A DNA stretch of 59,818 nucleotides from Deltaproteobacteria bacterium. Its GTDB lineage: Bacteria > Desulfobacterota > BSN033 > UBA1163. The stretch covers positions 1-59,818 of the forward strand of contig JAGXTA010000192.1 in assembly GCA_018333535.1 (NCBI GenBank). Reading direction: 5' to 3'. The notes beneath the pieces are model-generated. The model saw nothing but the letters and a program-made list of their open reading frames with translations, did not search any database and was not told the DNA's origin. Within the stretch, counting starts at the first letter, position 1. Each line of letters opens with the position of its first letter. This document shows, in pieces, positions 2,954 through 59,035 of the stretch. Made by a program: the position numbers and the translations under genes.

Positions 2954-3779
2954 TGTTTTCCGTTTTCAGTTCGTATCCCCGAGGGGTAATCATATATCTG
3001 CCTTTGACGTACGTCTTCGAATTGCCGACGATGATCGCCGTCCCCATATCGATCTGCTTGACTTCGAGCATATTCTCAAGGGTGGTAATCATCACCTCTT
3101 CGTTTTCTCTTCTCGCATTCCGTACGATCCCTGCGGGGGTCCGGGGCGATCGGTGTTTCATCAGAATCTGCCAGGCCATCTCAAGGGGTTTGATCCTCTT
3201 TTTACTTTTCGGATTGTAGAAGACGATCACAAAATCGCCCTGGCAAGCCGACTCGACCCTCCTCTCGATGATCCTGCGATCCGTGAGAAGATCGCTCAAA
3301 GAGATCACTGCAAAATCGTTCATCAAGGGCGCCCCCAAGAGACTGGCGCAGCTCGAGGCCGCCGTAATTCCGGGAATGATCTCTATTCTGACCTTTCTCG
3401 TCTCTTCTTTTTTTAAAAGCTCCAGGATGACCCCGGCCATGCCATAGATACCCGGATCGCCACTTGAAATGAGACAGACATCGTTGCCCGCCAGTGCTTT
3501 TTCGATTGCCTCTTCAGCCCTTCTGACCTCCTGTGTCATACCAGAGGAGATGATCTCTTTTCCGGCCAACAGACCTTTGAGAAGTTGCAGGTAGGCCTTG
3601 TAGCCCACGACGATCCGGCAATCCCGGATGGCCTTGCAAGCCCTTGGACTCAAGGAATCCCTGTCTCCAGGGCCGATTCCGACGATATTCAGTCTTCCAT
3701 AGCGATGGCCACGCAGACCCTGCCCCGTTTGACCCTGGGTACGATTAGCTTTGTCCTTCTTCCTGCCAGAAGCGCACAA
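2934..3779 (-). CDS. cbiH: Cobalt-precorrin-3 (C17) methyltransferase CbiH
   Basis: SAM-dependent ring-contracting methylase acting at C17 of cobalt-precorrin-3. The methylase fold motifs GIGPGDRDSLSPRA and SSGDPGIYGMAG are clear, as is the PGITAASSCASLLGAPLMNDF segment of CobJ/CbiH. The start is uncertain. The only upstream start-like codon is a TTG at 3779, which gives a 30-residue hydrophilic leader unlike the family. The conserved part begins at about 3692, where a CTG overlaps the cbiG stop in the same way other genes here overlap with ATGA. The functional call does not depend on this. Confidence 0.92.
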   Translation of the reverse strand: MCASGRKKDKANRTQGQTGQGLRGHRYGRLNIVGIGPGDRDSLSPRACKAIRDCRIVVGYKAYLQLLKGLLAGKEIISSGMTQEVRRAEEAIEKALAGNDVCLISSGDPGIYGMAGVILELLKKEETRKVRIEIIPGITAASSCASLLGAPLMNDFAVISLSDLLTDRRIIERRVESACQGDFVIVFYNPKSKKRIKPLEMAWQILMKHRSPRTPAGIVRNARRENEEVMITTLENMLEVKQIDMGTAIIVGNSKTYVKGRYMITPRGYELKTENNETLSR

Positions 3780-21688: not shown

Positions 21689-21742
21689 ACCCGCAAGGAC
21701 CCTTCACAGTCTTATCCTCGAAGACTTCTTCGTGAAGCATAT

Positions 21743-21945
21743 CCAGGCCAGGTTTTCTGACTCTCCCGACCTTAACTCGCCTTCCCATCCTGCCCCTTCG
21801 ATCCTTCGATAAGCTCAGGACTCAGGGCTTCGGATAGTGGCTTTTTTTGTTAAGGCACTTACCCCTAAAATATGGGGTCGGGAATACAGCGGCGGGTCCG
21901 TCCCCGACTTTGACGGGGTTCCCTTTTCCCGGATACCACTGATTC
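21743..21945 (-). promoter_or_regulatory. Cobalamin riboswitch upstream of btuB and the cob operon
   Basis: On the minus strand the conserved cobalamin-aptamer blocks appear in order: GGGAAAAGGGAACCCCGT, GGACCCGCCGCTGTAT, GCCACT, GGGAAGGCGAGTTAAGG, and a B12-box-like AGTCAGAAAACCTGGCC at 21746-21762. A terminator follows before btuB. A dispersed palindromic repeat of the CCTGAGCTTATCGAAGGATCG type is inserted in a peripheral arm between the GCCACT and GGGAAGG blocks. This is the only B12 riboswitch I see for the operon. Confidence 0.9.
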
Positions 21946-21956
21946 AATTGGTTTTC

Positions 21957-21985
21957 ATTTAACAGATTAAGAAAAGGTTTGTCAA
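21957..21985 (-). promoter_or_regulatory. Sigma70-type promoter of the cobalamin riboswitch transcript
   Basis: Minus strand TTGACA, 17 bp spacer, TTAAAT. The -35 box begins just after the stop codon of the PfkB kinase gene, and transcription would start about 10 nt before the first conserved aptamer block. Confidence 0.65.
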
Positions 21986-37449: not shown

Positions 37450-37455
37450 TTTAAG

Positions 37456-37641
37456 TAGGTTACAGGAGAGACCCCAAGGGGGGCGCCGAAGGGGCAAGTT
37501 CCGCTGAAGGCGGGATGAAACTCTCAGGCAAAAGGACTGTAACTTAAGAGATTCCTGGAAAGACCGAGGTGACAAGCCTCGGCACCGAAGGGGACAAATT
37601 CCGCCTATGGGCGGAATAATCTCTCAGGTCAAAAGACAGGA
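37456..37641 (+). promoter_or_regulatory. Tandem glycine riboswitch
   Basis: Two glycine aptamers in a row. Aptamer 1 (about 37457-37543) has GGAGAGACCCC, GGCGCCGAAGGGGCAA and AAACTCTCAGGCAAAAGGAC, closed by TTACAG/CTGTAA. Aptamer 2 (about 37552-37641) has GGAAAGACC, GGCACCGAAGGGGACAA and AATCTCTCAGGTCAAAAGACAGG, closed by CCTG/CAGG. A terminator starts at the end of aptamer 2, so glycine is expected to relieve termination (an ON switch, as known for this class). Confidence 0.95.
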
Positions 37642-44081: not shown

Positions 44082-44945
44082 ATGGGAATTGAAAAAAAAC
44101 CTCCATGGCTGAAAAAACGGATTCCGCCTTATCAGGATCTTCTTAAAGTGAAGACCCTCCTGGAAGAATCAGGCCTTCACACCGTTTGCGAGGAGGCGCA
44201 TTGCCCGAACCTCGGGGAGTGTTTTTCGCAAGGGACCGCAACCTTTCTAATCCTGGGTAATGTCTGCACAAGAAATTGCGGGTTCTGTGCTGTCCAGCAC
44301 GGAATTCCTGCCCCTCCTGCCGCAGATGAACCCAGCAGGATAGGTAGGGCAGTTTTGGGGATGGGCATCTGCTATGCAGTCATTACCTCTGTCACACGGG
44401 ATGATTTGCCCGATGGCGGAGCCTCTTTTTTTGCGAGAACGATCGAAACGATTCGAGAACAGGATCAAGGAATAAAAATTGAGGTACTAGTTCCAGATTT
44501 CAGGGGAGACCTCTCTTCTCTCGAGACAATCCTTCGTGCGTCTCCGGATGTCCTTAATCACAATGTCGAAACAATTGCCCGGCTTTATCCTCAAGTCCGA
44601 CCTCAAGCTGATTATAAGAGATCGCTTGGCCTGTTGAAAAAAGCGAAAGAGCTTTATCCCCATATTCATACGAAGTCCGGTTTTATGCTTGGGCTCGGAG
44701 AGACTCAAGAAGAAGTCTTGGAACTGCTTCGAGATTTGAGAAACACAGGATGCGATTTTTTAACGATCGGTCAATATCTTCAACCCCGTCAGGATCGTTT
44801 GCCGGTGGTCCGATATGTTCCTCCCGAGGAGTTCGATATGTATAAGAGAATAGGTCTTGAGATGGGCTTAAAAGCGGTTGCCTCCGGCCCCTTTGTCCGA
44901 AGCTCCTTACATGCCTCGGAGATGTACATCCTTACCTTAATTTAA
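44082..44945 (+). CDS. lipA: Lipoyl synthase LipA
   Basis: Radical SAM enzyme inserting two sulfurs into octanoyl-H protein. 287 residues. The auxiliary cluster cysteines are in CEEAHCPNLGEC, the radical SAM cluster in CTRNCGFCAVQHG, and the terminal RSSLHASEM motif is the conserved RSS(Y/L)HA end. It starts 17 nt after lpdA. With lipB it gives the endogenous lipoate route. Confidence 0.96.
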   Translation: MGIEKKPPWLKKRIPPYQDLLKVKTLLEESGLHTVCEEAHCPNLGECFSQGTATFLILGNVCTRNCGFCAVQHGIPAPPAADEPSRIGRAVLGMGICYAVITSVTRDDLPDGGASFFARTIETIREQDQGIKIEVLVPDFRGDLSSLETILRASPDVLNHNVETIARLYPQVRPQADYKRSLGLLKKAKELYPHIHTKSGFMLGLGETQEEVLELLRDLRNTGCDFLTIGQYLQPRQDRLPVVRYVPPEEFDMYKRIGLEMGLKAVASGPFVRSSLHASEMYILTLI

Positions 44946-47132: not shown

Positions 47133-47513
47133 ACAGGAATTAATTTTCGCTTCTCAAAAAACCTAAAAAGGGGTATATTAGAAACCAATCTTTCACAATT
47201 GATGACCCTGATCCTAAGGGTGTTCAATTTCTTCAACTATTATATTGCTGAGGTATAATATTGCTCTGAGCAACGTTATACTGAAAAAATGGCGATTATC
47301 AGGCTATTTTGGACTCAAAAAAGCCTTTTAAACGAATGAAAGGTTCGTTTTTTAGGAGAAAAATTGTAGCAGCATAAAAAACAATGTGCCAAAAAACGAA
47401 AAAGCAAAATAACTATTTCAGTAATACAAGCTCCTATGATTAATGGGAGAATAATATAAATTGTTATTTGATATATTGTCATAATTTTACCTTATAAATT
47501 AAGGAGATTATTT
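47133..47513. other. AT-rich spacer at the left edge of the cassette array
   Basis: No gene is seen; base composition drops sharply here. An imperfect palindrome GTATAATATTGCT-CTG-AGCAACGTTATAC (47253-47281) ends in a GTTATAC that resembles an integron core site. The array's left boundary is not resolved. A weak promoter-like TTGATA/TATAAA pair with 19 bp spacing lies at 47468-47498, and TAAGGAG precedes the first cassette gene. Confidence 0.45.
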
Positions 47514-47930
47514 ATGAATGAAGTCCCTTACTGGGTTCCCCTTGTAAGTGCAGTAGCCGGAGGCGCCCTTGTCGGTATTTTCAATTTATTCAAGGATTGG
47601 CAAAACAGAAAATCAGAAGAAAAAAGGCATCTCCAAGAACTTATGTTTAAATCAGCGGTTGAAGAATGGAAACAACATTCTATATTTGCCATTGAAGTAA
47701 TGAAGATGAAAACCGGAAAGAAAATAGCAATTTCACCTCTTGTCACATACCTTGTCCATCTCTTGAAACTTTCAGAGGTATTGTTTGACCAAAAAATAAC
47801 AAAAGAAAATCTTTCACAAAAATTCTCCGAAATTGACGAAGTGATGAATGAACTCAAAAAATTCACAGTCCCTCCCAATAAAAATAATGAAAACATTGCA
47901 CAACAAATCACTCAAGCCGACACGGAATAG
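47514..47930 (+). CDS. Cassette gene 1: membrane-anchored protein of unknown function
   Basis: 138 residues: one N-terminal membrane segment (VPLVSAVAGGALVGIFNLF) followed by a lysine- and glutamate-rich helical region. TAAGGAG precedes the ATG. The end of the gene lies inside an attC-like site, and the base composition is AT-rich compared with the cobamide and glycine genes. I do not recognise the family; such small membrane-anchored proteins are common in integron cassettes. Confidence 0.75.
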   Translation: MNEVPYWVPLVSAVAGGALVGIFNLFKDWQNRKSEEKRHLQELMFKSAVEEWKQHSIFAIEVMKMKTGKKIAISPLVTYLVHLLKLSEVLFDQKITKENLSQKFSEIDEVMNELKKFTVPPNKNNENIAQQITQADTE

Positions 47931-47984
47931 CTCCGTGCTTTTGGCGAAGGCCGATGGCCGAGCGGCTTACTTCACCCGTTAGGT
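47899..47984 (+). other. attC-like site 1
   Basis: Left core GCACAAC (consensus RYYYAAC, one mismatch) and right core GTTAGGT (consensus GTTRRRY). Inside, TCAAGCCGAC pairs imperfectly with GCGGCTTACTTC as the L''/L' boxes, and two inner hairpins (CACGGA...TCCGTG and GGCCGATGGCC) fill the centre. Length 86 bp. This is the usual attC layout at the 3' end of a cassette gene. Confidence 0.8.
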
Positions 47985-48002
47985 CTTAATATAAAAAGCA
48001 TT

Positions 48003-48224
48003 ATGGATACTTTACAAGTGGTAGGAAGGTTGGGACTTGCTCTAAATATTTTTGGGACAATAATGATCGCATTATCATTCGGTAAAAATCTCGCTGACGC
48101 ACACCAATTGGATGAGAAGGGGAGAAAAGTGTACCTTGCGTCCTTTCTTCATCCGAGGCTGTTCATGTGGGGCCTGGTCATCATCGTTGTTGGATTTATA
48201 TTACAGTTTATAGCGTTAGTCTAG
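48003..48224 (+). CDS. Cassette gene 2a: small two-helix membrane protein
   Basis: 73 residues with membrane segments LGLALNIFGTIMIALSFG and LFMWGLVIIVVGFILQFIAL around a polar KNLADAHQLDEKGRKVYLASFLHP loop. It starts 18 nt after attC-like site 1. Its last codons read AGCGTTAGTC, itself resembling an attC right core. The next gene starts 5 nt after its stop. Function unknown. Confidence 0.7.
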   Translation: MDTLQVVGRLGLALNIFGTIMIALSFGKNLADAHQLDEKGRKVYLASFLHPRLFMWGLVIIVVGFILQFIALV

Positions 48225-48229
48225 GAAAT

Positions 48230-48568
48230 ATGAAAAAAGTATGTGGAACTTGTAATTTTGGAGTTGACCACAAAGCAGGAAATTCATGTATTGAAGTGCT
48301 ATGTACCTTTGATAATGAATGGCGTCTTGATCGTATTGAAGGCTGCACTAAATGGAAAGAGCGAACTGAAGGATTATCAAAGAAAGATAGAATTGATTTA
48401 GCCAATAGATTGAAAGGGGAGGAAGCAACTGAACGAAGGCATCACGAATTAATAAAGGACTCTCAAGCAACCCGTAAAAACCAGCTCCTGTTGTTGATTC
48501 TGGGCGCACTGCTCGGCGTGATTGGAACATTGCTTTCACAGTATATATGGTCATTGTGGATGGAATGA
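48230..48568 (+). CDS. Cassette gene 2b: Cys-rich N-terminus with a C-terminal membrane anchor
   Basis: 112 residues. MKKVCGTCNFGVDHKAGNSCIEVLC with four closely spaced cysteines (a possible metal or disulfide site) and another in EGCTKWKERTEG; a charged helix; then LLLLILGALLGVIGTLLSQYIW as a C-terminal anchor. The ATG lies 5 nt after the preceding stop. Family not recognised. It ends 7 nt before the left core of attC-like site 2. Confidence 0.65.
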   Translation: MKKVCGTCNFGVDHKAGNSCIEVLCTFDNEWRLDRIEGCTKWKERTEGLSKKDRIDLANRLKGEEATERRHHELIKDSQATRKNQLLLLILGALLGVIGTLLSQYIWSLWME

Positions 48569-48574
48569 TTTGAT

Positions 48575-48635
48575 AACCAACCTCAAATCATTCCAGCGAA
48601 CGGCTGAAAACCTCCGCCGATTTGGGGCGTTAGTT
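48575..48635 (+). other. attC-like site 2
   Basis: Left core AACCAAC, right core GTTAGTT (one departure from GTTRRRY), 61 bp. CCTCAAATCATTCCAGCGAACGG pairs with CCGCCGATTTGGGGCG, the common attC arrangement with unpaired bases in the long arm. The left core also sits in the loop of a perfect 13 bp hairpin formed with the end of the upstream gene (48561-48595). Confidence 0.78.
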
Positions 48636-48643
48636 TTATTGCT

Positions 48644-49084
48644 ATGTTCAAGAAACTTTTTAAGAGAAAAGAGATTGTGGACCCTATCTTCCGGGAAGGG
48701 AGACTTGCGTTTTCAAACGGCGTCGCTGTATCCGATAACCCATACAAATCGACGAGCACGGAACGTGCACAGGTATGGGAATCAGGATGGCACGAAGCGC
48801 AAGCGTCTCGCCAAGAATTTGAAGTAAAGCAAAAATACGGGGAAAACTCTTCAAACTCTTCCTCCGGTGTATTCGGTATATTTGCGGTAGTTATCGGCGT
48901 AGTGACCTTTTTCGGCTGCTGGATTTACGCAATCGCCACTTATGGATTATTTCTCGGATTGGCTTTCGGGTGGATTCCAGCTTTAATCATTGCTATTATC
49001 ATCACTCTCCTGTCCCCTGTTATTGCGATTTTGTTATTGATTGCCGTGATCATCTTGTTGATTGTCTTGACAAAAAGAGTTTAA
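48644..49084 (+). CDS. Cassette gene 3: ribosome-modulation-factor-like N-terminus fused to membrane helices
   Basis: 146 residues. Residues ~18-52 (GRLAFSNGVAVSDNPYKS, then AQVWESGWHEAQ) follow the Rmf pattern of conserved Gly, Asn-Pro-Tyr and Trp-x-x-Gly-Trp residues. A serine-rich linker leads to three hydrophobic segments with almost no charge (IFAVVIGVVTFFGCWIYAI, LGLAFGWIPALIIAIIITLL, VIAILLLIAVIILLIVL). The ATG is only 8 nt after attC-like site 2. Rmf-type motifs here may be a structural resemblance; function unknown. Confidence 0.7.
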   Translation: MFKKLFKRKEIVDPIFREGRLAFSNGVAVSDNPYKSTSTERAQVWESGWHEAQASRQEFEVKQKYGENSSNSSSGVFGIFAVVIGVVTFFGCWIYAIATYGLFLGLAFGWIPALIIAIIITLLSPVIAILLLIAVIILLIVLTKRV

Positions 49085-49117
49085 GGCATGACTATCAATA
49101 ACATGGAAGACAACTCA

Positions 49118-49205
49118 ACCTAACAAGTCAATCAAGGCGACGGGTGATAGCCCTGTGCTTTTTCAAGGAAGTCGCTGCCCCCGCACCTTATTTTTATCGT
49201 TAGAC
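49118..49205 (+). other. attC-like site 3
   Basis: Left core ACCTAAC (full consensus) and right core GTTAGAC (full consensus), 88 bp. TCAATCAAGGCGACGGG pairs imperfectly with CCCCGCACCTTATTTTTATC; the centre holds GCCCTGTGC-type hairpins. The start of cassette gene 4 follows 26 nt later. Confidence 0.88.
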
Positions 49206-49231
49206 AATAAAATACAAGCGAAAGAGTTTTT

Positions 49232-49987
49232 ATGAAATTTTTAATTGCATGGATAACTATTGGAATAATAGTAGGTTATCTCAAACTTCGTCAATCGAAA
49301 CAACCCGGCTTCGAAAGAAGTGTCACTCTCGCTACATTGCCTTATATAATAATCGGTATCTTTTTGTGGCCTATTTTACTGTTTTATATTTTCAGTGAAA
49401 GGAAGATACATAGGGAAGCTTATTTTAGATCAAGAAAGATTCGCACTGAATTAGATGAAATAGAAAAGCAATTAAGCAAGCCGGAAAACGAAGATGAGCA
49501 AAATTTTGTGTTCACAAGAAACATAAAGTGTGGTGCCTGTGGCTACAAGGGAAAAGTCGAAGCTCATGATACTGTCAATGTATTTCCGGAATCTGAAATT
49601 TTCAAAAACCTCGGAAAAGATTCTTCTACAGGGTTTCTTCATTTTCGATGTCCTTCATGTAACGAAGATTTGGCAGTTGATCCTTTGAATGCTATCGCAG
49701 CAAAACAGATGGTTGGCTATCGTGAATCACTTATTACCTTAAAGAAAGTGCAACGATCAAATCGACATGTGCCCATAATTTGGGGAATTATATGTTTAAT
49801 TGCAGCAATATTTATTTTTGTCAAATTCCGTGGCTGGTGGACTTACTTAGTGGGGGGACTCTTGTTAATGCTGGCATGGGTATCACTTAAAACTGGCATC
49901 TTCGCTTCCAAAAAGGAAATAAAAGAACTGACAGAACCTGGCCCCTTGCCTGAGGACACAAAAAGAAAATTCCAAGATAGATTGTAA
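49232..49987 (+). CDS. Cassette gene 4: membrane protein with a zinc-ribbon-like domain
   Basis: 251 residues. Two N-terminal membrane segments (LIAWITIGIIVGYLKL and LPYIIIGIFLWPILLFYIF), a cytoplasmic-type region with paired cysteines CGACGYKGKVEAHD ... FRCPSCNEDL that look like a zinc ribbon, then two C-terminal membrane segments (IIWGIICLIAAIFIFVKF, YLVGGLLLMLAWVSL). Family not recognised. An attC-like site follows it. Confidence 0.72.
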   Translation: MKFLIAWITIGIIVGYLKLRQSKQPGFERSVTLATLPYIIIGIFLWPILLFYIFSERKIHREAYFRSRKIRTELDEIEKQLSKPENEDEQNFVFTRNIKCGACGYKGKVEAHDTVNVFPESEIFKNLGKDSSTGFLHFRCPSCNEDLAVDPLNAIAAKQMVGYRESLITLKKVQRSNRHVPIIWGIICLIAAIFIFVKFRGWWTYLVGGLLLMLAWVSLKTGIFASKKEIKELTEPGPLPEDTKRKFQDRL

Positions 49988-50015
49988 TCAAAATAATGAA
50001 AGGGAAAGTTTGGGC

Positions 50016-50076
50016 ATCTAATAAGTGATTACTGCAGCGTAAGGCTGATAGCCGCCACTGATTTTGCACGTTAGCC
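50016..50076 (+). other. attC-like site 4 (degenerate)
   Basis: Left core ATCTAAT and right core GTTAGCC each depart by one base from consensus. The arms are AGTGATTACTGCAGCG and CGCCACTGATTTTGCAC, and the size (61 bp) fits. Position between two cassette genes supports the call despite the weaker cores. Confidence 0.65.
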
Positions 50077-50107
50077 ATATGATTAATTCCAAGGAAGGAT
50101 AATTGTC

Positions 50108-50710
50108 ATGCCTACATTCGATAGAGACATCGACAACATTGCAATGGACATTATTTCCGGGAGCATGTATTCATTAAATTTTTTGAGAAATATATCGGTA
50201 GCTATCTTCGATCAAAGAATAAAGGATATGACGGTTCGAGAATTCTATACAGAATGGCTAAAGAAGAGTAAATATACAGAACATTCGGTTCCATATTGTC
50301 TCGGGTCAATATTTGGGTATCTTTATTGTGGCATACTTCTTAGTAAAGAACGGTGGTATGATCTGCTTCCTGAAGATTGTATAAAAGATGCTCCTGCTGA
50401 ATGGGGACTTGTCGGTGTTAACTACAATTCGCCAAAGAAACCCGATCCTTCGATAAAATACACAATACGTAGAATGAGAAATGCGCTGGGGCATGGCAAC
50501 ATTTCAATAAACGTACCCCACGGTCTTGATTATCGGAAAGACGAATTTGAGTTTGAGAAAAGAACCACTGTTAAGTTCTATGACAAAGACCAAAGAAATA
50601 GTTCTGATGTTTTTGAGATTGAGATATCTATTGAGGGGTTATCAATTTTGGTTAAGAAGTTTCATGGTATTGCGTATCTGGAAATTATGAAAGATATAAA
50701 ACGTGTCTAA
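50108..50710 (+). CDS. Cassette gene 5: HEPN-like protein
   Basis: 200 residues, helical, with RRMRNALGHGNIS near residue 128; the R-N-x-x-x-H arrangement is the active-site motif of HEPN ribonucleases, and the context resembles the pEK499_p136-type HEPN group. No cognate nucleotidyltransferase partner lies next to it. AAGGAAGG precedes the ATG. The TAA stop is part of the left core of attC-like site 5. RNase or defence function is inferred from the fold only. Confidence 0.72.
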   Translation: MPTFDRDIDNIAMDIISGSMYSLNFLRNISVAIFDQRIKDMTVREFYTEWLKKSKYTEHSVPYCLGSIFGYLYCGILLSKERWYDLLPEDCIKDAPAEWGLVGVNYNSPKKPDPSIKYTIRRMRNALGHGNISINVPHGLDYRKDEFEFEKRTTVKFYDKDQRNSSDVFEIEISIEGLSILVKKFHGIAYLEIMKDIKRV

Positions 50711-50761
50711 CAAAACAATCCAGCCGATTGCTTACAGCACCGGCTGATTTTGGCGTTAGGT
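50705..50761 (+). other. attC-like site 5 (best consensus match)
   Basis: 57 bp with left core GTCTAAC and right core GTTAGGT, both full consensus, and arms AATCCAGCCGATTGC / GCACCGGCTGATTTTGGC. This is the textbook short attC form, and it overlaps the stop codon of the HEPN-like gene. Confidence 0.92.
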
Positions 50762-50769
50762 GACTATAT

Positions 50770-51186
50770 ATGTTTAATATTCTCAGGAAAAAGAGAACAG
50801 AGAAATTCTTACTTAGTCAAATTGCTACAATTGCAGGTAAAATTATTGTCAATTCGCTAAAATGTGCGAGTTCTTTAGACACTAATTTTCAAGGTGTTAC
50901 AAGTCATCCATTAACTCCACTGACGTTTAGCCAAATCACTGTCGAATATTTGATGTTATTTATTCATTTGACAGATAGAGTTTTATTTCAACTCTTTGGG
51001 CCTAAAGACAGAACTCAGTATATAGATATGTTAGTTGCTCTAATATCCGAGACCTTAAAAGGTGATTCTTTTTCAGAATCTTTCCCCAAATTCAGAAAAA
51101 CTCTTAATGTTAAAGAAAAGGTCCGTATAAGTCCAACAATGAGAAACAAGGCCGACGATTATATTATTGCGGATGTTTCAACCTGA
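50770..51186 (+). CDS. Cassette gene 6: protein of unknown function
   Basis: 138 residues, starting 8 nt after attC-like site 5 with no good ribosome site. N-terminal basic MFNILRKKRTEKFLL, then a helical hydrophobic middle (ITVEYLMLFIHLTDRVLFQLFG) and a polar C-terminus. No family recognised. No attC-like site follows directly; a large perfect hairpin and another short frame come before the next left core, so the cassette may have been disrupted or two may have merged. Confidence 0.6.
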   Translation: MFNILRKKRTEKFLLSQIATIAGKIIVNSLKCASSLDTNFQGVTSHPLTPLTFSQITVEYLMLFIHLTDRVLFQLFGPKDRTQYIDMLVALISETLKGDSFSESFPKFRKTLNVKEKVRISPTMRNKADDYIIADVST

Positions 51187-51285
51187 ATCTTGCGTGAAAA
51201 CTATAATGTTAACGATGGAACCAAGTAGCTTTCAACCCTGTAAATAAGGGTCGGAAATGAAATATCTCATTTATATTACTCTCTT

Positions 51286-51336
51286 TTAGGCCATAATCTT
51301 AACCTACCTTTTAGGTAGGTTAAGATTATGGCCTAA
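51286..51336. repeat. Perfect 24 bp inverted repeat with a 3 bp loop
   Basis: Arms 51286-51309 (TTAGGCCATAATCTTAACC...) and 51313-51336 are exact complements around TTT. The stem is far longer than a usual terminator, and the T content after it is modest. No terminal duplication or transposase is associated. It may be a bidirectional terminator, a minimal mobile hairpin or a structured RNA. Confidence 0.85.
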
Positions 51337-51402
51337 GAACGGGTTTTATAAACCTTAAATTGCAATCAGTGCCGGTTCCACAGCACCATGTAATAGGAAT
51401 AT

Positions 51403-51693
51403 GTGGGAACCCAATGCATAGTTATCACGCAGTTTTCAGGTTCAATATTCATGGATACCTTCTTTATTGATGAATTGAATATGTGTACCATAGAATATAC
51501 GAAGTATAAAAATATAATTCCAAGTGGGGATAATTTACCTCAGGGTACCTTATTATGGGAGTTTGGTAAAAATATTTCATTTGTAATCTATGACCATCAA
51601 AATGATACTGATACTATAAAGTTATCTTCAGAGTTAGCAGCCCAATACTATGCAAATATTGACGTGAGAACATTACTTACAAAGGCCACCTAA
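51403..51693 (+). CDS. Cassette gene 7: short protein, possibly an N-terminally truncated frame
   Basis: 96 residues from a GTG at 51403, or 80 from ATG 51451 (MDTFFIDELNMCTIEYTKYKN). Soluble-looking, no family recognised. Its TAA stop overlaps the ACCTAAC left core of a sixth attC-like site. Lack of a ribosome site leaves open whether this is a complete gene. Confidence 0.45.
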   Translation: MGTQCIVITQFSGSIFMDTFFIDELNMCTIEYTKYKNIIPSGDNLPQGTLLWEFGKNISFVIYDHQNDTDTIKLSSELAAQYYANIDVRTLLTKAT

Positions 51694-51694
51694 C
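51688..51694 (+). other. Left core of a truncated attC-like site 6
   Basis: ACCTAAC overlaps the preceding stop codon, as in site 5, but no complementary arm or GTTRRRY follows within 150 bp. Sequence right of it reads directly as the C-terminus of another gene, so the array was cut here by a later rearrangement. Confidence 0.6.
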
Positions 51695-51917
51695 AATCGA
51701 AACCGAAGTGGAAGGAGTTCGGACGTGGGTGATGACTGCTGAACATCTGGCCGCCATCGCGCTCAAGACGGGCCGTCCAAAAGATTATGCTCGCCTTCTG
51801 CAATTCATCGAAAGCGGCATCCTTGACACAAACAGGCTCGACTCGATCCTTTCTCAACATGGGTTGCTTGCGAAATGGGAGCAATTCGGGCAAAGAATTT
51901 TTGGTGATGACAAATGA
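51695..51917 (+). pseudogene. C-terminal fragment of a nucleotidyltransferase-like protein
   Basis: The frame reads ETEVEGVRTWVMTAEHLAAIALKTGRPKDYARLLQFIES...QHGLLAKWEQFGQRIFGDDK. This is the end of the AbiEii-like/DUF6036-type nucleotidyltransferases as I recall them. The catalytic N-terminal two thirds are missing; the sequence begins abruptly at the truncated attC core. Its stop overlaps the start of the next small gene (ATGA). GC content is clearly higher than in the cassettes. Confidence 0.65.
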
Positions 51918-52078
51918 GCGAGTGGATGCGCAAAGTTTTGGAAAGCAAACGGCAGATGCGAAAGCAGATCGCCGCACCTCCTTTTTCCGAGAAGATCAAG
52001 ATTCTGGAAAAACTTCGCGATCGCAGTCTGGCGATTGCGTCAAATCCTCTGCGGCGGCGGTCGTTTCACCGAGGTTGA
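51914..52078 (+). CDS. Small partner protein of the truncated nucleotidyltransferase (54 aa), probably truncated
   Basis: Begins MSEWMRKVLESKRQMRKQIA, then PPFSEKIKILEKLRDRSLAI. This is the short helical partner usually encoded after such nucleotidyltransferases. After ASNPLRRRSFHRG the reading frame runs into the next fragment and stops, so the native C-terminus seems lost. With its partner decapitated, it is unlikely to be functional. Confidence 0.55.
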   Translation: MSEWMRKVLESKRQMRKQIAAPPFSEKIKILEKLRDRSLAIASNPLRRRSFHRG

Positions 52079-52543: not shown

Positions 52544-55258
52544 ATGTCAACGGACTTAAAACAGACGCCATTGTATTCCTGGCATCAGGAACATGGGGCG
52601 CAGATGGTGGAGTTTGCCGGCTGGGAGATGCCTGTTTCTTATAAGCCGGGCATCCTTGAAGAGCATCTGGCCACAAGGAAATTCGGAGGTCTCTTTGACA
52701 TCTCCCATATGGGAAGGTTTCTCATCTATGGGGAAGAAGCCATTCCCTTTTTACAGCAAGTCCTGACGAATAATGTCTTTGCCCTGGAGCACGGCATGGC
52801 CCAATACACCCTGATCCAGAATGAATGGGGCGAAGCCATTGATGATGCTTATCTTTATCGGCTGGATATAGGAAACCTTCCTTCAGAATCGAGATACCTT
52901 CTTGTGGTCAATGCCGCCAATAAAGTGAGAGACTGGAATTGGTTGATTGAGCATAAGAGACGGTTCAGGGGCCTCATCCTCGAAGATAAGAGCGACGAGA
53001 TGGGAATGATTGCCCTCCAGGGCCCCGTGACCAAAAGGGTGTTGGAGAAGATCGTCATCGAAAGCCATTCAAAACTCCCTGATCCCTGGAGGAATCGCTT
53101 GAGGGTTTGCGAGATCGAAGGGACCAGAGTCGCTGTGACCATCTCAAGAACCGGATATACGGGAGAACCTATCTGCTTCGAGCTCTTTTCTGAGAGAGAG
53201 AAAATGCGGATGATCTGGGAAGCGATCCTCGCCGTTGGAGAAAAAGAAGGGATTGTCCCTGTGGGTTTGGGGGCAAGGGACACCCTGAGGATAGAGGCAG
53301 GTCTTCCCCTGTATGGCCATGAATTGGGGCTCGATCAAGAGGGAAAAGAGATACCCATCTTTGCGGTTTATTCAGCCGGATTGGCAGTCAGTTTTTCTCC
53401 TTTGAAAGGGGATTTTATAGGCAGGGAGGCCCTGCGGAGACAGTTTGAAGAATTGAAAGCAAGGACGGATGGAACTCCTCTGCCACCCAGAGAGAAACAG
53501 ACCATTCCCAGAAGGGTTGTACCCATTGCGATGATCGGAAGTCAGGGTGGACAGGCGATCGCCAGGCAAGGGTATGAAGTGTTTGTGGACGGGAGGAAGG
53601 TCGGATATGTGACCAGTGGGACGATGATTCCCTACTGGAATTTCTCCGATGAAGGGATCCTGTCCAAACCGATTGAAGAAAAGGGGATGAGGGCCATTGC
53701 CTTGGCCTATATCGATTCCGATTTTGAAGATGGACAGAAGATTGAGATTCAACAGAGGGGAAAGACGATTGAAGGAATCATCGTAGAAAAGCATTTATCT
53801 GGTGAGGCGCCTCCCTATGCCCGGCCCATTCTGTTTCAGGAGAAGATATTAAAAAGGCGTGAGCCTGTCAGGGATTTGAAAGATGCGGCAAAAAAGCTGG
53901 TCGAGCGGGCGATCCGGAATACCTACTGGAGGCAGAGAGAGACGATTAACCTTATTCCTTCGGAACAGACGCCGTCCCCGTTGGTAAGACTCCTCACGAT
54001 CATGGATCCATCGCACCGGTATGCGGAGCACCGTGTCGTCAAGGCCCTTGGAGAGAGGGATGTTTTCTATTATCAGGGGACGAAGTTGATCGAAGAGGTG
54101 GAAGTCCTCCTTGCGGATGAGATGCGAAGCTATTTAGGGTGCTCCGAGGTTGAGGCGAGGGTGATCAGCGGGCAGATGGCCAACACGGTTGTCTTCAGCG
54201 GCTTGATGGATTATCTCAACCGGCTCGACCGGAAGAGCGATCCTCGAAGGATCAGGAAGGTGATGAATCATCATCTCGGAAGGGGGGGCCATCTCAGCGC
54301 ACAACCCATGGGTGCTCTGAGAGATTTTATAGCCATCGATCCTCTGACGGAGAGGCCTTCCGTGGTTCCGTTCCCGGTGCTGAAGGAGGATCTCTATCAG
54401 ATCGATCTCTCCAAAACAGAAGAACTTCTGGGAATACATAAACCTGAGTTGATCATTCTTGGCAAGAGCATGATCCTTTATAGGGAACCTCTCAAAGAGG
54501 TTGCGCGGATGGCATCCAATATCAAACCCAGGCCGATCATTCTTTATGACATGGCCCATGTATTGGGATTGATCGGACCCTATTTTCAGGAACCCTTTCA
54601 GGAGGGAGCGGATATCGTCACCGGTTCCACTCATAAAACCTTTTTCGGTCCCCAGAGGGGGATCATTGGGAGCAATATGTCAGAAGGGACGTCGTACGAG
54701 GACCTCTGGGAAGCCATTGTCCGGAGGGTTTTCCCCGGAAGTGTGAGCAACCATCATCTCGGAACGCTTTTAGGACTGCTCATGGCGGCCTATGAGATGA
54801 ATCTCTATAAATCAGACTATCAGAAGGCAGTGATCTCCAATGCCAAAGCCTTTGCCCGTTCTTTGAAAGAGAAAGGATTAACCATGGAGGGAGACTCGCG
54901 GCTTGGATATACGGAAACCCATCAGGTGATCGTCAGAGTGGGTTATGGAAAGGGACCGGTCGTGGCCGAACGGCTTGAGGAGAACAATATCATCGTCAAC
55001 TATCAGGCCGCTCCGGATGATGAGGCTTTCACTGCGGCGAGTTGCTTGAGGATGGGAGTCCAGGAGATGACCCGCTTCGGAATGAAGGAGGAGGACTTCG
55101 GACAATTAGCAGAATACATAGGCGAGATTATTCTCCATGGCCGATCCGTGGCAAAGGGAATTGTTCAGTTCAGAAAGAGATTCACGGAGATGAAATACTG
55201 TTTGCCGGAGGAAGAGGCTGAATCCCTGGTCAATGGACTCATTGAAGCGATCCGATGA
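52544..55258 (+). CDS. Fusion of aminomethyltransferase (GcvT) and serine hydroxymethyltransferase (GlyA-like)
   Basis: 904 residues. Residues 1 to about 430 are GcvT: QTPLYSWHQEHGAQMVEFAGWEMPVSY, FDISHMGRF, IPVGLGARDTLRIEAGLPLYGHEL-type motifs, and GTMIPYWNFSDEGI near the T-protein C-terminus. From ~445, AIRNTYWRQRETINLIPSEQTPSPLV begins an SHMT with HRYAEHR, SGQMANTVVF, LYDMAHVLGLIG and the PLP lysine in TGSTHKTFFGPQRGIIGSN. GcvT produces 5,10-methylene-THF and SHMT uses it with glycine to make serine, so the fusion could pass the one-carbon unit directly. No frame break is visible. Confidence 0.93.
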   Translation: MSTDLKQTPLYSWHQEHGAQMVEFAGWEMPVSYKPGILEEHLATRKFGGLFDISHMGRFLIYGEEAIPFLQQVLTNNVFALEHGMAQYTLIQNEWGEAIDDAYLYRLDIGNLPSESRYLLVVNAANKVRDWNWLIEHKRRFRGLILEDKSDEMGMIALQGPVTKRVLEKIVIESHSKLPDPWRNRLRVCEIEGTRVAVTISRTGYTGEPICFELFSEREKMRMIWEAILAVGEKEGIVPVGLGARDTLRIEAGLPLYGHELGLDQEGKEIPIFAVYSAGLAVSFSPLKGDFIGREALRRQFEELKARTDGTPLPPREKQTIPRRVVPIAMIGSQGGQAIARQGYEVFVDGRKVGYVTSGTMIPYWNFSDEGILSKPIEEKGMRAIALAYIDSDFEDGQKIEIQQRGKTIEGIIVEKHLSGEAPPYARPILFQEKILKRREPVRDLKDAAKKLVERAIRNTYWRQRETINLIPSEQTPSPLVRLLTIMDPSHRYAEHRVVKALGERDVFYYQGTKLIEEVEVLLADEMRSYLGCSEVEARVISGQMANTVVFSGLMDYLNRLDRKSDPRRIRKVMNHHLGRGGHLSAQPMGALRDFIAIDPLTERPSVVPFPVLKEDLYQIDLSKTEELLGIHKPELIILGKSMILYREPLKEVARMASNIKPRPIILYDMAHVLGLIGPYFQEPFQEGADIVTGSTHKTFFGPQRGIIGSNMSEGTSYEDLWEAIVRRVFPGSVSNHHLGTLLGLLMAAYEMNLYKSDYQKAVISNAKAFARSLKEKGLTMEGDSRLGYTETHQVIVRVGYGKGPVVAERLEENNIIVNYQAAPDDEAFTAASCLRMGVQEMTRFGMKEEDFGQLAEYIGEIILHGRSVAKGIVQFRKRFTEMKYCLPEEEAESLVNGLIEAIR

Positions 55259-57268: not shown

Positions 57269-59035
57269 ATGGCGACCCCCCTTGAAAACTGGGTTGAAGA
57301 ACAAGCGATGTTGACGGAACCGAAGCGCATCTGGTGGTGCGATGGCTCTGAAGAGGAGGCCCACCGGATTATCGAAATCGGAATGAATGAAGAAAAAATC
57401 GGAAACCACCCCATCTTTCACAAACTGAATCAAACCGCTTATCCCTTTGGTTATCTTCATCGGAGCCACCCGACCGACGTTGCCCGGACAGAGCATCTCA
57501 CCTATGTGTGCCATTCTGAGGGGACCCTTGCCGGGCCCAACAATAACTGGATGGACCCCGGAGAAGCCAAAGAGCTCCTCACCGGATTGACCAAAGGCTG
57601 CATGAAGGGGCGGACAATGTATGTCCTTCCCTATATGATGGGCCATCCTGATTCTCCTTATGCCAAGGCCTGTGTCCAGCTTACGGATGTCTCCTACGTT
57701 GCCATCAGTATGAGAATCATGACCCGCATGGGGAAGAAGGTCACTGAAAAGATAGGAAAAAGGGAGGATTTTTTTAAAGGGCTCCATTCGGTGGGAGAAT
57801 TTGACCCAAACCGCCGTTTCATCATGCATTTTCCGGGGGAACACTTCGTCTGGAGCATCGGGTCAGGCTATGGAGGGAATGCCCTTTTAGGGAAGAAATG
57901 TTTCTCCCTTAGGATCGCCTCCTGGCAGGGATTGAAGGAGGGGTGGCTTGCGGAACATATGGTCATTATCGGAATTGAAGACCCCGATGGGAACATCACC
58001 TATCTGGCGGCGGCCATGCCCTCGGCCTGTGGAAAGACGAATCTGGCCATGCTGGAATCCACCCTTCCCGGCTACAAGGTCTGGACTCTGGGAGACGATA
58101 TAGCTTGGTTGAACGTCGGGCCGGATGGCCGTCTCTGGGCCATCAATCCAGAGATTGGCCTTTTCGGTGTGGCTCCGGGAACCTCGATGAAGACCAATCC
58201 GAACATGATGAGGACGTTGAAAGCAGGGAAATTCTTTCCCGTTCTTTTTACCAATGCGGCTTTAAATCTTGATACGAATGAACCCTGGTGGGAAGGGATG
58301 GAAGGTGAAGTTCCTGGAAACCTTTCCGACTGGCAGGGCAATCCCTGGGAGAATTCGAATGGAAACAAAGCGGCCCATCCGAATTCACGTTTCACGGTCT
58401 CCATTGAACATGTTTCCACCCTCTCGAAAGAATTTAAAAACCCGAAGGGAGTGCCCATTTCAGCCATCCTGATCGGAGGACGAAGGAGTCAACTGATTCC
58501 TCTGGTGGTGGAGGGATTCAACTGGCAGCACGGGGTCTTCATCGGAGCAAGCAACGGTTCCGAGACAACGGCGGCCGCCCTCCATAAGATAGGGGTGTTA
58601 AGAAGAGACCCCATGGCCATGCTTCCTTTCTGCGGATACAATATGGGTCATTATTTCGGGCACTGGCTCAATATGGGGGAAAAACTGGCCAGCCCGCCGA
58701 GAATTTTTTCCGTCAATTGGTTCAGGATGGATGAGAACGGCGAGTTTATTTGGCCTGGCTTCGGTGAGAATATCCGGGCATTGAAATGGATCGTGGACAG
58801 AGTCCATGGCCGGGTGGGAGCGAGAGAGACGCCTGTTGGCCTTGTCCCTCACTTAAAGGATCTGGAACTGGACGGGATGAACCTTTCTGAAGAGAGGCTT
58901 GAGAAACTGTTTGAAATTCATCCGAGGGCCTGGGATGATGAGGTGTTAGGAATCGAAAAGTTTTTCGAACAATTCGGTCAGACCATGCCTGAAATGATGT
59001 GGGGAGCGTTGCGTACCCTGAAGGCCAACCTGTAA
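57269..59035 (+). CDS. pckG: Phosphoenolpyruvate carboxykinase (GTP)
   Basis: 588 residues, the usual size for GTP-type PEPCK. RTMYVLPYMMGHPDSPYAKACVQLTDVSYVA, the kinase-1a P-loop MPSACGKTNLAML and the metal/phosphate site TLGDDIAWLNVGPDGRLWAINPEIG and GVPISAILIGGRRSQLIPLVVEGFNWQHGVFIGAS are all present. It links oxaloacetate and PEP; in an autotrophic or syntrophic anaerobe it serves gluconeogenesis. It converges with atpC, whose stop is 3 nt from its own. Confidence 0.97.
   Translation: MATPLENWVEEQAMLTEPKRIWWCDGSEEEAHRIIEIGMNEEKIGNHPIFHKLNQTAYPFGYLHRSHPTDVARTEHLTYVCHSEGTLAGPNNNWMDPGEAKELLTGLTKGCMKGRTMYVLPYMMGHPDSPYAKACVQLTDVSYVAISMRIMTRMGKKVTEKIGKREDFFKGLHSVGEFDPNRRFIMHFPGEHFVWSIGSGYGGNALLGKKCFSLRIASWQGLKEGWLAEHMVIIGIEDPDGNITYLAAAMPSACGKTNLAMLESTLPGYKVWTLGDDIAWLNVGPDGRLWAINPEIGLFGVAPGTSMKTNPNMMRTLKAGKFFPVLFTNAALNLDTNEPWWEGMEGEVPGNLSDWQGNPWENSNGNKAAHPNSRFTVSIEHVSTLSKEFKNPKGVPISAILIGGRRSQLIPLVVEGFNWQHGVFIGASNGSETTAAALHKIGVLRRDPMAMLPFCGYNMGHYFGHWLNMGEKLASPPRIFSVNWFRMDENGEFIWPGFGENIRALKWIVDRVHGRVGARETPVGLVPHLKDLELDGMNLSEERLEKLFEIHPRAWDDEVLGIEKFFEQFGQTMPEMMWGALRTLKANL

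Follow-up and report, generated by a model that had tools for sequence, protein, structure and literature searches.

We analysed a stretch of 59,818 nucleotides (the window) from an uncultivated deltaproteobacterium of the UBA1163 group (GenBank assembly GCA_018333535.1, contig JAGXTA010000192.1), in which a run of short genes separated by attC sites lies between yjbQ upstream and a gcvT–glyA fusion gene downstream. Both flanks are chromosomal, lie on the same contig and follow the gene order of the genus. A first-pass annotation, made from the sequence alone, had placed the run beside lipA; a lipA-like gene does exist (44082–44945), but ~1.8 kb before yjbQ, which is the adjacent gene. The same annotation described the region as AT-rich, and the array indeed has a GC content of 33–46%, against ~46–52% across most of the flanks. 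All cassette genes and attC sites share one orientation (+ strand). The array is almost certainly a CALIN, a cluster of attC sites lacking an integrase, formed by six gene cassettes placed head to tail. This assignment rests on the sequence and structure of the sites, not on hairpin energy alone.

The sites were scored with a covariance model, R1, formed from 23 aligned attC sites, none of them from this genome. Its sources are arrays beside intact integrase genes (intI) in the congeners G002 and G007 and in G013 and G059 (G, C and L numbers are our handles for genomes, contigs and loci), two class 1 plasmid integrons and one cyanobacterial plasmid; the alignment shows strong covariation in the R''/R' and L''/L' stems. 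Scanning the 59.8-kb window with R1 identifies four sites, every one on the + strand and all within 2.9 kb, and no site beyond those four up to E 10. Site 1 (47898–47984; 51.2 bits, E 2.2e-9), site 3 (49118–49205; 51.9 bits, E 1.5e-9) and site 5 (50705–50761; 48.9 bits, E 7.3e-9; DNA fold z −3.0) retain most R1 base pairs, with R''/R' and L''/L' boxes able to pair into the substrate of IntI. Site 2 (48575–48635) is shorter and weaker (22.4 bits, E 0.007; 0.0006 in a local unfiltered scan). Sites 3 and 5 had been singled out beforehand as the pair on which an attC model should decide, and both score ~50 bits with this one, built from other genomes. A simpler attC rule applied to the interval returns 3 strong sites, whereas 300 dinucleotide shuffles of it give 0.06 on average and 1 at most. 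Site 3 also shares 82% identity over 93 bp with the attC of contig C51 from the same genome.

A fourth position, 50016–50076 (+), lies where a site is expected between two cassette genes and is best called a degenerate attC. Its R' box (GTTAGCC) is good, its R'' box reads ATCTAAT (ending AAT, not AAC), it fails to keep the base pairing of the model, and a 32-bp part matches an attC of the genome's own contig C91 at 91% identity. We rejected it as a full attC on its R1 score of only 7.9 bits (E 1.1, unfiltered scan). The five attC-like sites originally proposed are therefore borne out, four being found by R1 and the fifth being weak and degenerate. The proposed truncated sixth site is likewise real: its left core alone is present (51687–51695, +), cut at ~51695, and congener G007 carries the full 57-bp attC. 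Stop codons were also said to overlap sites, and those of open reading frames (ORFs) c1, c6 and c8 do fall inside attC sites or left cores.

Cassette 1 encodes a protein of 138 residues with no confident family (c1, 47514–47930, +), its stop codon lying within attC site 1. Cassette 2 holds two genes, a 73-residue small membrane protein as judged by eye (c2, 48003–48224, +) and a 112-residue protein of no family with several cysteines near its N-terminus and one hydrophobic stretch (48230–48568, +). The cassette 3 product (c4, 48644–49084, +; 146 residues) has an Rmf-like domain followed by a hydrophobic region (Pfam RMF, E 1.2e-7, 32.1 bits, cut-off 27.9), and that of cassette 5 (c6, 50108–50710, +; 200 residues) matches the HEPN family pEK499_p136 (Pfam PF18736, E 2.1e-15, 57.2 bits, cut-off 26.6), with an R-x4-H motif that reads RNALGH and a stop codon within attC 5. 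Cassette 4 (49232–49987, +) encodes a 251-residue membrane protein with CxxC pairs. The Rmf-like and HEPN labels of the first-pass annotation thus stand, and its zinc-ribbon label is weak (Pfam CpXC 20.4 bits, below the cut-off of 25.4). Our searches found no plasmid homologues of the cassette proteins and no viral homologues of the Rmf-like protein, and those with PADLOC and PHROGs gave nothing convincing. Any activity of the cassette genes is presumptive.

Cassette 6 presents as two ORFs, 50770–51186 (c7, +), which reads a few bases into an insertion starting at 51182, and 51403–51693 (c8, +), which starts inside that insertion. These are one gene, because the counterpart in congener G007 (contig C50) is intact and is interrupted here by 259 bp; the G007 gene encodes 219 residues and is followed by a full attC (L137:6002–6058, − strand, 36.1 bits, 57 bp). 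The 5' half is 92.5% identical to G007 at the DNA level and the 3' half (51441–51693, ending at a stop codon in the attC 6 left core) 92.8%. Eight separate genes are accordingly rejected on the G007 alignment, and the earlier count of about eight becomes seven genes in six cassettes. The insertion (51182–51440), absent from the G007 copy, has by its sequence the anatomy of a miniature inverted-repeat transposable element (MITE): terminal inverted repeats that agree at 19 of 26 bases, a 5-bp duplication (TTCAA, 51177–51181 and 51441–51445) and an 83-bp internal inverted repeat (51270–51352). This anatomy explains the striking hairpin at 51270–51352, which we rejected as an attC since it is internal to the insertion. 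G001, G009 and G010 contain partial relatives of the element, frequently close to the end of a contig.

On the left, an AT-rich dispersed repeat (47143–47388) separates yjbQ from the array, parts of it recurring with 67–79% identity at unrelated places in G003, G004, G013 and G014. Because a repeat so scattered in relatives belongs to the chromosomal flank, the array must start between 47388 and 47513. The hairpin at 47253–47281 is part of this repeat, and was rejected as an attI, attC or attG (a non-attI genomic insertion site). On the right, the match to G007 continues to the attC 6 left core and the sequence switches to another gene at ~51693–51696. What follows (51696–51917, +) is not a cassette; it is the 3' part of a nucleotidyltransferase-like gene, as we read its sequence, with 86% DNA identity to G009:C46 from 51696 and an intact version of 173 residues in congener G009. 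The next gene (51914–52078, +; 54 residues) is also found in G009 and on the genome's own contig C95. With the G007 match running up to the core and the G009 match beginning at 51696, the right end is a deletion junction. The array is now in decay, with a mutated attC 4, an attC 6 truncated by this deletion and a last gene split by the MITE-like insertion.

The contig carries no integron integrase (no match to TIGR02249), and tblastn with 11 IntI proteins detects no significant intI fragment in the window; the earlier statement that no tyrosine recombinase lies here thus extends, for the integrase, even to fragments. The first-pass annotation had left intI to be sought elsewhere in the genome. 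In the rest of the assembly (192 contigs, 97% complete, 3.3% contamination) we find a single remnant, on contig C161 (L009 6569–7084), that is frameshifted and covers residues ~186–315; it is broken, and no intact intI was found. A 42-bit attC lies ~35 bp from the remnant, and cassette-like genes run away from the latter on the other strand. Other TIGR02249 matches in the genome lack the integron-integrase-specific stretch 182–237 or are weak, and sub-threshold matches of the same kind occur in all 14 control genomes. IntI above the curated cut-off is present in six of nine congeners and in 38 of the 99 genomes of our search for relatives. Deltaproteobacterial attC sites were, moreover, modelled in 2021 with a model specific to the group (PMC8352920), and the first-pass view of such arrays as little described in deltaproteobacteria was overstated.

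Beyond the array, R1 has ~26 further matches in the genome (up to E 0.03), spread over a dozen other contigs and mostly on C136 and C167. Clusters of sites are seen on C136 (L096, eight sites), C167 (L097, five sites), C51 (L101), C66 (L100), C144 (L098) and C124 (L106). Compared with those attC-bearing contigs of its own genome that we retrieved, the array shares attC sites (73–91% identity) and no cassette gene; one further match falls outside the array at 52.3 kb.

The array is specific to this lineage among the genomes compared. The yjbQ–gcvT interval is nearly empty in three congeners (279 bp in G003, 200 bp in G005, 67 bp in G008) and holds other genes in G002, G004, G009 and G012; no relative examined has an attC site there. 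No cassette order is shared at the interval, and the fixed inheritance that the first-pass annotation had named as evidence against a cassette array is not seen. In G004:C26 (L110, ~3100–3250) the interval includes a partial second copy of the 3' end of yjbQ. Relatives of the genes in cassettes 1, 2, 3 and 6 adjoin attC sites at unrelated places (in G030, G002, G038 and G007, respectively): a distant relative of c1 has an attC-like site ~190 bp upstream, c2 has a 65% identical relative beside an attC in congener G002, and that of c4 lies between two weak attC matches. This context suggests that related species trade such cassettes. Synonymous divergence (dS) from G007 is 0.21–0.26 for the cassette 6 gene and 0.70 for gcvT–glyA, a difference suggestive of transfer of cassette 6. 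We rejected it as proof, given that the flanking PEPCK gene has a lower dS still. That gene (57269–59035) stands at 0.115 to G007 among neighbours at ~0.7, which points to possible recent exchange by recombination or to strong codon bias.

Several observations weigh against reading the locus as a CALIN that arrived from elsewhere. Hairpin energy alone is significant for site 5 only, sites 1–4 being no better than shuffles; R1 scores site 2 weakly and does not support site 4; for some cassette genes, the distant relatives in G217, G073, G167 and G265 have no attC that we detected in their vicinity; an assembly of this fragmentation and completeness could lack an intact intI; and, for the route of arrival, the GTT at 47463 is a candidate left junction only, the junction being bounded to its interval and not fixed exactly. 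Unremarkable hairpins at four of five sites, together with attC-unrelated inverted repeats also present in the region, would fit a row of ordinary small genes with chance inverted repeats, or repeats like repetitive extragenic palindromes, between them in place of recombination sites. We give this practically no weight: the model matches need conserved R and L boxes at the right spacing, reach E ~1e-9, lie on the coding strand only and recur nowhere else in the window, and relatives of the genes are attC-flanked elsewhere. It is very unlikely, too, that the yjbQ and gcvT flanks were misjoined to an array whose DNA belongs to an integron at another place or to a different organism in the bin. 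Such an artefact would suit a draft of 192 contigs with 3.3% contamination, and draft genomes overestimate CALINs while similar attC sites complicate assembly (PMC9024848). The array, however, sits inside one long contig of 59.8 kb, ~47 kb and 8 kb from its ends, between flanks typical of the genus, so that breaks between contigs do not account for it. At its right junction a nucleotidyltransferase-like gene of a kind known from a congener and from contig C95 is cut, as would be expected of a biological deletion, and the attC sites of the array resemble those elsewhere in its own genome.

How a true CALIN came to lie here is a separate matter. A complete chromosomal integron may once have occupied the yjbQ–gcvT interval and lost its intI and attI there, leaving what would still be a CALIN, of another origin; degradation of integrons is a proposed origin of CALINs (PMC9024848), and the deletion junction at the right end tells us that something was removed. 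We consider such a remnant in place unlikely, since the window contains no intI fragment, the relatives examined all lack attC sites in the interval, a dispersed repeat of ordinary chromosomal type forms the left flank and the sole intI remnant of the genome is on another contig. Arrival from elsewhere is the probable course of events. The cassettes would have reached the chromosomal interval after this lineage split from the sampled relatives, most likely by integrase-mediated recombination at a secondary (non-attI) site or by the move of a piece of array; entry without an integrase of its own is favoured because neither intI, attI nor an intI fragment was found at the locus. In each cassette's attC the bottom strand would form the hairpin that serves integron integrases as recombination substrate. 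Movement of the cassettes would now need an integrase in trans, and with only a broken intI in the assembly the array is presumably immobile at present. A more tentative extension of arrival from elsewhere is that the lineage scatters cassettes over its chromosome and that this array is one of many secondary-site insertions, the responsible integrase having since been lost or acting from elsewhere. Its basis is the attC-like sites on about a dozen contigs, several inside long chromosomal contigs, in a genome where intI occurs only as a pseudogene.

The locus is a true CALIN of known type. In IntegronFinder 2.0 a CALIN is any cluster of two or more attC sites that has no integrase; the paper finds CALINs about as numerous as complete integrons and reports almost six attC sites per CALIN on average (PMC9024848). 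The array agrees in having at least two sites, no intI nearby and cassette genes that all point the same way, and its four to five sites are near that mean (PMC9024848). It shows no structural difference, and stands apart in its host, an uncultivated deltaproteobacterial genus, and in the one gene split by a MITE-like insertion; CALINs are common, so this is not a new class. Sedentary chromosomal integrons share with it cassettes mostly of unknown function and attC sites that are alike within genome and genus, and the congeners G002 and G007 have intact intI beside arrays of the same kind. Unlike them, the locus is without intI or attI and has five sites and a truncated sixth rather than more than ~10; it can be no more than a scattered piece of such an integron. 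A further parallel comes from the insertion of cassettes at attG sites (Loot et al. 2024, as cited in PMC12901181): the likeness is in cassettes that occupy a chromosomal interval near-empty in relatives and in the absence of an integrase there, and the difference is in the several consecutive cassettes here as opposed to one. At our locus an attG-type junction, cut between G and TT in otherwise uninterrupted host sequence, has no more than a candidate (GTT 47463): deletion has destroyed the right end, and the left is bounded only to 47388–47513. The general picture of integrons is unchanged by this locus, which offers an example of an array that appears to have decayed after its entry into an ordinary chromosomal interval, in a genus most of whose sampled members have integrons. 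Its near-empty neighbour interval, congener-shared cassette, MITE-like insertion and cut attC make it a concrete case for the origin of integrase-less arrays.

Three further features of the window lie outside the array. Downstream, gcvT and glyA form one ORF of 904 residues (52544–55258), and a similarly long open frame is present in all nine congeners and in three other family members. Tandem glycine riboswitch aptamers (37453–37641) precede the glycine cleavage genes, and a cobalamin riboswitch lies at 21732–21968 on the − strand.

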